A DNA stretch of 64,000 nucleotides from Achromobacter dolens (lineage in GTDB: Bacteria; Pseudomonadota; Gammaproteobacteria; Burkholderiales; Burkholderiaceae_B). The stretch spans positions 1 through 64,000 of the forward strand of contig NZ_CADIJW010000024.1 in the NCBI RefSeq assembly GCF_902859745.1. Direction: 5' to 3'. A program made the position numbers and the translations under genes. Positions 21,367 through 64,000 of the stretch are shown here, one piece after another (position 1 is the first letter of the stretch; the number at the start of each line of letters is the position of its first letter). The notes under the pieces are model-generated. The model ran no database searches. It was not told the DNA's origin and saw only the letters and a program-made list of their open reading frames with translations.

Positions 21367-21412
21367 TTTCTTGCTTTGGGGTTTTTGCTTGGCGAGTCGT
21401 GCTTCGTAGGTC

Positions 21413-21577
21413 GGCCGGCGCGGCGAGGGGCGGGCGGGGCGCGCCTACGATTGCGGTCCGGAGCTTTCGCTCCGGACTGCCCCATCGTCATCCTCGTTGC
21501 CGCCTGAGGCGGCTGCCTACGGATTCCCTCGGGCGCATCTACACGGCGCGCCCCGCCCGCCCCTCGCCGCGCCGGCC
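21413..21577. repeat. Long inverted-repeat element, copy 1 (33-bp perfect arms, 99-nt core)
   Basis: The arms at 21413-21445 and 21545-21577 are perfect reverse complements over 33 bp; the left arm is G-rich. The 99-nt core begins TACGATTGCGGTCCGGAGC, forms an inner hairpin (GTCCGGAGC-TTTC-GCTCCGGAC), a second small hairpin (GCCGCC-TGA-GGCGGC), and ends GCGCATCTACAC. The same core, with quite different arms, recurs at 63602-63761. It sits between two convergent genes. It encodes no convincing protein and resembles no insertion sequence I know. Confidence 0.9.
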
Positions 21578-21639
21578 TGCGGGTGTCGAGAGTTGAGGCG
21601 TTGTTGGAGCGGAGGGGGCATGAAGAGTGTGTGTTGCCC

Positions 21640-21701
21640 GTCATGGCCGGCTGCGCGGGCAGCCGGCCATGACTTACGCGGTGTCTTGTGGTGGCGCGAT
21701 G
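21640..21701. repeat. GCGG-loop hairpin and conserved 22-nt tail, copy 1
   Basis: A 15-bp perfect stem (GTCATGGCCGGCTGC / GCAGCCGGCCATGAC) with loop GCGG occupies 21640-21673. Six bases later the segment 21680-21701 begins GGTGTCTTG and matches 63893-63914 at 18 of 22 positions. The same hairpin-tail order follows the second inverted-repeat element, so this looks like the downstream half of one composite repeat. No T-tract, so a simple terminator is unlikely. Confidence 0.75.
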
Positions 21702-21776
21702 TGCGCTGCGCGGCGTTGACGCGGGGCTGGGTTGGCCCGGCCTTGGGGGGGAGAGGGGGCGGTTTGGCTGGCCGTT

Positions 21777-63490: not shown

Positions 63491-63601
63491 TACTGCTTGT
63501 TTGTCGTGTTAACGACATCGGGGATTTTACGCTGGTCTTGGGGGTGGTGCTGAATATGCTTGTTGCGGGTGGGGTTTTGGGTGGGGGTGGGTTCTTAAGA
63601 C

Positions 63602-63761
63602 GCCGGGGGTGGCGGGGCTTGGGGGGAGCGGGGCTACGATTGCGGTCCGGAGCGTTCGCTCCGGACTGCCCCTGCCTCAACCTCGTCCGCCTTCGGCTCC
63701 CTTCGGTTTCCGTTGGGCGCATCTACACGCCCCGCTCCCCCCAAGCCCCGCCACCCCCGGC
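63602..63761. repeat. Long inverted-repeat element, copy 2 (33-bp perfect arms, 94-nt core)
   Basis: The arms at 63602-63634 and 63729-63761 are perfect reverse complements over 33 bp, yet differ completely from the arms of copy 1. The core again begins TACGATTGCGGTCCGGAGC, forms the inner hairpin GTCCGGAGC-GTTC-GCTCCGGAC, and ends GCGCATCTACAC. The left arm is very G-rich with four runs of four or more G. It lies upstream of the ribB riboswitch, 111 bases away, in the same orientation as copy 1. Confidence 0.9.
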
Positions 63762-64000
63762 TCGGTCGGTGGTCACTTCACGGGCGTGGGGGCGGGTGGC
63801 TTGCTTGGCGTTTTGGCCAAGAGCCGGGGTGGGTCGGAGGGGGGTGCGGGGTCGCCAAAGGCGGCCGCGCGGGCGGCCTTCTTTGGCGTTTGGGTGTCTT
63901 GCGGCGGGGCGGTGCCGGGCTGGCGTGGCTGGCGGCCGGGTGTTGGGCGAGCGCGGCCGTTGTGGCTGCGCTGTTGGCGCCCTCGCCGCTTGCTTACTTC
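63762..64000. other. GC-rich stretch downstream of copy 2, window end
   Basis: No gene could be recognised to the end of the window. The hairpin and tail at 63853-63914 are listed separately; a small hairpin CTTGGC-GTTTTG-GCCAAG lies near 63804. The right edge of the composite element may lie within this stretch. Confidence 0.4.
63853..63914. repeat. GCGG-loop hairpin and conserved 22-nt tail, copy 2
   Basis: A 16-position stem (14 paired) from 63853 to 63888 with loop GCGG, CGCCAAAGGCGGCCGC against GCGGCCTTCTTTGGCG. Four bases later the tail at 63893-63914 matches the copy 1 tail at 18 of 22 positions. The loop-proximal stem matches copy 1 with one base-pair swap (GGCTGC/GCAGCC versus GGCCGC/GCGGCC). 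Confidence 0.7.

Follow-up and report, generated by a model that had tools for sequence, protein, structure and literature searches.

How does a long hairpin keep its two arms complementary when the sequence of the arms differs from one copy to the next? The question is raised by two inverted-repeat elements in a 64,000-nucleotide stretch of an Achromobacter dolens contig (hereafter the window). The original prediction, made from the letters of the window, described a conserved core between perfectly self-complementary 33-bp arms that are unrelated in sequence in the two copies, and proposed either that one arm is copied from the other or that structure is under strong selection. The elements belong to a family of structured repeats between genes, apparently undescribed, that occurs in Achromobacter and related bacteria; we say "apparently undescribed" because no description of the repeat was found in the open-licence literature, judged by titles and abstract openings of the matches listed.

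The two copies and their surroundings

The element consists of a stem of about 33 bp that closes a core with two smaller helices. In copy 1 the left arm (21413..21445, plus strand) and the right arm (21545..21577, plus), both delimited by inverted-repeat pairing, are 33 bp long, 100% complementary and separated by 99 nt, at exactly the positions predicted. Copy 2 likewise has 33-bp arms with 100% complementarity (63602..63634 and 63729..63761, plus, delimited in the same way), and its core ends are identical to those of copy 1, as had been claimed; its core is 94 nt long rather than 99, and the core interiors differ. The 19-nt end motif, with up to three mismatches allowed, has two matches in the window against 0.03 expected. 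Both cores were assigned to the minus strand (21446..21544 and 63635..63728). Model R1, which was built from minus-strand cores, matches copy 1 at 21441-21548 with 116.2 bits and copy 2 at 63630-63732 with 107.7 bits, whereas its top plus-strand matches reach just 16.8 and 17.9 bits, respectively. The inner hairpin H1 of copy 1 (GTCCGGAGC / GCTCCGGAC) lies at 21456..21477 on the minus strand.

Outside the arms, copy 1 begins with the left-end motif CTTCGTAGGTC (21402..21412, plus), a type B end recognised with a consensus of 70 type-B copies, and copy 2 with the motif GGTTCTTAAGAC (63590..63601, plus), a type A end. To the right of the arms follow parts with approximate ends, 21578..21720 (plus) in copy 1, which is partly conserved between copies, and 63762..63885 (plus) in copy 2, which includes one terminator-like hairpin (63863-63878, plus). 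The right part of copy 1 also holds a separate perfect inverted repeat of 15 bp with a 4-nt loop (21640-21673). Many copies have ATGCGC at the start of the minus strand, but protein coding through the element was set aside, as core lengths (94, 98, 99 and others) differ by non-multiples of three and some copies have no ATG.

Copy 1 is flanked by converging genes for an FMN-dependent dehydrogenase (plus) and an IclR-type regulator (minus). Copy 2 adjoins the 3' end of a SET-domain gene and an FMN riboswitch (RF00050, 63336-63493, minus, 108.9 bits) that lies outside the element. At the Rfam gathering cut-off, applied to the window, this riboswitch was the only match to pass and nothing was found within the element; a relaxed Rfam search with copy 2 returned mostly microRNA models far below their cut-offs, several of them on both strands.

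Genes beside the copies are for the most part directed toward them. By a simple ORF rule, the left gene is directed toward the element in 139 of 195 copies, at a median distance of 39 nt, and the right gene in 160 of 192; convergent gene pairs surround 110 of the 195 classified copies. Both selection against insertion close to promoters and a function at 3' ends would be in keeping with this orientation. Some elements stand as facing pairs, four in the A. dolens genome and 8 and 6 in two closed genomes. In 61 of 229 copies, compared with 7 for a control stretch, at least five consecutive T residues stand at a distance of 8-50 nt ahead of the arm. This run, whose most frequent end point is 23-28 nt from the left arm, is either part of the element or the terminator of the upstream gene. 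A strict terminator scan of the right part found sites in 14 of 124 copies on the plus strand and 6 on the minus strand, with 1 after shuffling, and a looser terminator motif was present in 84 of 129 copies; in the scanned stretch of copy 2 there was one terminator-like site against a shuffle average of 1.4.

Copies in the host genome and in related genera

The host genome (6.29 Mb, 114 contigs) has 40 matches to the core, and all 40 are flanked by self-complementary arms, so the pairing is no coincidence of two copies. The stem length, which had been expected to be fixed at 33 bp, ranges from 28 to 34 bp. Thirty of the 40 stems are perfect, eight have one mismatch and two have two; stems were found by maximising pairing, and mismatches past the detected stem go uncounted. 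The wider sample comprised 269 copies from several genomes, with stems below 20 bp left out (in an earlier unfiltered set of 189 there were six such stems, including a false match, a contig-edge copy and a truncated copy). These 269 copies yielded 229 distinct arm pairs, of which 109 are perfect, with 217 mismatches in 7274 cells overall.

Arms of different copies have a mean ungapped identity of 0.48. With gaps, the median identity between paralogous arms of the host genome is 0.67, compared with 0.97 and 0.94 between orthologous arms. Most loci thus do carry different arms, yet 12 of the 40 host copies have another copy in the same genome with arms at least 0.91 identical. To call the arms unrelated was therefore too strong; they are not wholly private to their loci. 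Two findings had been named beforehand as pointing to coincidence, namely arm sequences shared among copies and a majority of copies lacking complementary arms; the first was found for a minority of copies and the second was not found.

The core is present in 42 of 43 Achromobacter genomes. A core pattern with 30 specified bases gave, among the matches listed (at least 80 contig records), Achromobacter only. Among 268 genomes of the family, weak matches appeared in three from other genera (G128, G102 and G137), and the G128 match, in another genus of the same family, is real. An order-wide search, with filters strict enough that diverged members can be missed, matched 4 of 399 genomes, G345 being the sole one outside the family. 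The loci in G102 and G137 (L302 and L303) and in G345 (L337) were rejected as members, as they have no long stem (best 8-9 bp). Genome G128 has nine hairpins with 41-bp stems and 1-3 mismatches each; the arms are nearly identical in seven of the nine, with L323 and L327 differing more, and its H1 is unlike the Achromobacter H1 in sequence with pairing kept. In a third genus, G124 has five loci with stems of 42-43 bp whose arm sequences differ among loci and which each have a mismatched patch near the core; at one of them, L349, the stem lies at a neighbouring place, and the match that recruited the locus is cut by the locus end. The same architecture with other sequences is thus found in two further genera of the family.

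Five G128 loci (L328, L329, L330, L331 and L332) carry a nearly identical 1.38-kb insertion next to or between hairpins, encoding a Mutator-family transposase that we take to be of the IS256 type. The insertions are near-identical even though the element copies around them vary; it is as though the insertion sequence preferred this repeat. We read the transposase stretch as a later insertion and reject it as cargo between paired hairpins. A distant-mode search of phage and plasmid collections with copy 2 (window 63590-63960) gave no match in either. In the closed genomes G002 and G027 the copies crowd the dnaA half of the chromosome (28 of 31 and 26 of 32 sites, pairs merged), and gene conservation near the origin may explain this crowding.

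Arm change at orthologous sites

At the site of copy 2 the element is found in five lineages with differing arms (four aligned, and L199 from the table only). The arms pair perfectly in the clade of the host and in L187, with one mismatch in L208 and two in L199; ungapped pairing in L195 is only 13 bp because its arms differ by small gaps. Since several lineages have arms at the same site that are different and still pair, the change happens in place. The original prediction had offered copying during insertion as one route to matched arms, in which a mobile element would have its second arm copied from the first. The many copies per genome with largely locus-specific arms are what such an element would leave, but pairing arms that differ at one site in several lineages speak against it. 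Clean empty sites with a target-site duplication, as expected of a transposable element, were sought in alignments of two sites and one facing pair. The nearest relatives without the element have what look like deletion remnants there, not clean empty sites, and relatives further away gave no readable junction. We disfavour this explanation and consider it very improbable. In a facing pair of G002 compared with the A. dolens genome (L008 and L242), the latter lacks the second hairpin and retains just an outer piece of one of its arms, which reads as loss by deletion.

Paired change was counted in three comparisons, A. dolens with G027, A. dolens with G002, and G027 with G002, which reuse the same genomes, the only three with near-complete copy sets, and are therefore not independent. 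Loci whose arms needed different gaps were excluded; 916, 936 and 974 pairs were compared (here and below, values are in this order). Matched changes on both arms numbered 35, 35 and 48 against 24, 16 and 24 one-sided changes (at 28 of 29, 29 of 30 and 30 of 32 loci), with two more unmatched both-arm changes in the first comparison; flank divergence was 4.7, 6.7 and 7.7%. A coincidence test on 26 of 29, 27 of 30 and 26 of 32 loci found 29, 36 and 39 coincident arm changes, where shuffles within arms gave 5.0, 4.8 and 6.1 expected and at most 12, 12 and 16 in 5000 shuffles. These counts bear out the proposal that complementarity is kept as sequence changes, whether by copying or by selection on structure. 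In a wider count over 251 upstream-similar pairs, of which those with arms at least 0.8 alike were used and in which relatives recur many times, there were 196 paired, 115 single and 9 other changes in 4757 columns.

Some of the arm similarity is exchange between copies: arms are nearer to a paralog than to the ortholog in 8 of 29, 7 of 30 and 15 of 32 loci. Arm-core-arm units might then be copied whole between loci by ectopic recombination or transposition, and in this way matched arms would arrive together. The arm families common to several loci (the 12 of 40 host copies above) are in keeping with such exchange, as are orthologous core interiors, which reuse shared alleles, are identical in just 3 of 29, 1 of 30 and 1 of 32 loci and differ even beside identical arms. 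However, when every locus was dropped for which either genome has a similar arm at a different place (14 of 29, 14 of 30 and 16 of 32), 20, 26 and 35 coincident changes remained against 5.1, 3.2 and 6.5 expected. In several close pairs, moreover, the new arm patch has no 11-mer in common with any other sampled locus, while among all arm 11-mers a fraction of 0.48 is found again at a second locus. We therefore think it rather unlikely that whole-hairpin exchange accounts for the pairing. The comparison also qualifies the predicted contrast between conserved core and varying arms. That contrast describes the copies of a single genome; among orthologs, the core interior (median identity 0.90 and 0.84) is less well conserved than the arms (0.97 and 0.94).

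The kinds of paired change bear on whether second-site mutations under selection suffice. The main rival to copying is selection alone: the fold of the minus strand would be required, a mismatch would do harm, and pairing would be regained through mutation at a second site, with no copying between arms. Among both-arm changes, 27 of 37, 22 of 35 and 29 of 48 are transversions, with upstream flanks near 1:1; because transversions cannot pass through a G.U pair, both-arm changes that are mostly transversions count for copying and against compensatory selection alone. So do the paired changes at a single locus, which reach 7-8, and the identical indels found on both arms in 0 of 1, 2 of 3 and 3 of 5 indel loci of the filtered set, with the limit that indels are matched in just 5 of 9 indel loci overall and several lie in G runs. 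On the other side, arms changed by 5.3, 4.6 and 6.2% per site, each both-arm change being counted twice, compared with 8.1, 11.1 and 11.5% in the adjoining intergenic stretch. The arms thus changed less than their intergenic neighbour, which argues for constraint and not copying alone. The variance-to-mean ratio over loci was 4.0, 2.0 and 2.7 for paired changes and 3.3, 3.7 and 2.8 for upstream flanks, so that clustering is no greater than in the flanks in two of the three comparisons, as compensatory selection would have it; the mean-corrected excess is larger for the arms (2.4, 0.8 and 1.1 vs 0.16, 0.13 and 0.08). The uneven spread of paired changes over loci does not decide between the readings.

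The probable folding strand and comparison with known systems

For the strand analysis one copy was taken from each of 129 locus groups, and 70 of the 129 stems are perfect. Read on the plus strand, the mismatches in 4115 cells are C:A (44), A:C (23), T:C (28), T:G (5), G:T (2) and others (5), that is, 67 C:A or A:C against 7 T:G or G:T. Seen from the minus strand, the persisting mismatches are therefore for the most part G.U(T) or G.A, and this is probably the strand that folds. The same signal could also arise from a bias toward C-to-T mutation on the minus strand. In 126 of 129 groups the minus strand has the lower RNA folding energy, and the number is again 126 of 129 for the core with six bases of each arm. 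Next to the inner 4-bp helix the bases GGA and GA are conserved; in our reading of the alignment, they could form tandem G.A pairs on the minus strand. The folded minus strand may be RNA or single-stranded DNA.

The inner helices also keep their pairing. The 4-bp helix has few alleles (ATCC/GGAT, ATCT/AGAT, AACC/GGTT and ATCG/CGAT), with 4 true breaks in 263 parsed copies and 6 copies unparsed; a further 18 rows marked as broken are, in our reading, ATCG/CGAT parsed out of register. The AACC allele occurs in 15 of 40 host copies and in none of those sampled from A. deleyi (17 copies), A. kerstersii (8), A. mucicolens (6) and A. marplatensis (8), a distribution that looks like core exchange within lineages. 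In 28 minus-strand cores RNAalifold, whose consensus covered neither hairpin H2 nor the outer stem, found six pairs changed on both sides, none of them with a one-sided standard pair; pair 24-101 is changed on both sides in 7 and pair 31-95 in 13 of the 28. In some cores, among them L039 (1026-1138) and L040 (1084-1196), about 14-18 additional nucleotides that include a C run are inserted after H1.

Covariation of the inner helices and tolerated mismatches of the G.U and G.A kind on the minus strand are both expected from compensatory selection, but intermediates in which like faces like (C:C, A:A, T:T) are few, 4 of 107 mismatches. Taking these points with the transversions, indels and per-site rates, we hold compensatory selection alone to be possible, and lean against it. 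One further observation concerns orientation: in L011 of the A. dolens genome (C50:27650-27749) the core is inverted between the arms relative to the element end motifs, the only such case among 247 copies with a readable end motif (22 more were unreadable). Inversion as a normal state was rejected, since 246 of the 247 are in one orientation.

We marginally favour the explanation that pairing is kept by arm-to-arm template-switch copying together with selection on minus-strand folding. As DNA is synthesised, template switching within the hairpin (quasipalindrome correction) would either transfer a mutation from one arm to its partner or remove it, and selection would favour the folded minus strand, as RNA or single-stranded DNA. 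Such selection seems to be needed too, given that per-site change is lower in the arms than in the intergenic stretch beside them. The transversion-rich and sometimes indel-bearing paired changes, and the one inverted core, fit template switching as patterns in the alignments. Cores may in addition be exchanged between copies by ectopic gene conversion, and the element might conceivably serve as a structured module at 3' ends or boundaries, in most cases where two genes converge.

Several known systems resemble the element in part. Type B ends carry GTAG, as do REPs. REP/BIME elements are associated with RAYT, the REP-associated Y1 transposase. In REP/BIME and ERIC families the stem or palindrome sequence is common to the copies, whereas Achromobacter stems differ between most loci (mean ungapped identity 0.48) with pairing kept. 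Terminal inverted repeats common to copies, as in MITEs, were not found among the inner arms; short end motifs outside the arms are shared. Integron attC sites are folded, single-stranded sites with variable but complementary arms in which one strand matters; the element is like them in its probable single-strand folding and in its variable complementary arms, and unlike them in length and core motifs. A core with several helices and covariation is like that of Rfam structured RNA families. In being intergenic, multicopy and foldable, the element is like REP/BIME and ERIC, and like the bacterial stem-loop repeat families described in PMC2267715.

The closest likeness in process is to quasipalindromes. 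Template switching makes quasipalindrome arms identical in E. coli and yeast (PMC7202029, PMC3820800, PMC8604942), spacer inversion is named among its outcomes together with arm homogenisation (PMC8604942), and it has been proposed to maintain RNA stems (PMC8794818). Equalised arms, multi-base compensatory changes and an occasional spacer inversion are features that the repeat has in common with quasipalindrome correction (PMC8794818, PMC8604942, PMC7202029, PMC3820800). The concerted changes that keep or restore arm identity, by which such correction is recognised, were found in the ortholog comparisons. As presented there, for E. coli, yeast and RNA genes, quasipalindrome correction is a type of mutation at single sites or short stems; here it would extend to an entire family of repeats whose stems are about 33 bp long and whose spacers measure near 95-110 nt, as deduced from sequence.

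The persistence of pairing in long stems whose sequence is changing is an old problem. Double mutation through wobble intermediates, the usual answer, has been hard to separate in rRNA from template switching, the newer one. A single genus provides about 40 replicate long stems per genome in the three genomes counted, most with a sequence of their own, and the stems common to sister species at known divergence make the rate and spectrum of paired change measurable. The hairpins are a natural test bed for the upkeep of palindromes and a ready substrate for a reporter. It is also conceivable, and in our view decidedly unlikely, that the element goes through a dedicated cycle: one strand, be it RNA or single-stranded DNA, would fold, and one arm would serve as the template for rewriting its partner. 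Each locus would thereby keep its own matched stem around a common core, with the hairpin serving as a structured marker of gene 3' ends. If that were true, this would be a repeat family with a built-in rule for copying its arms.
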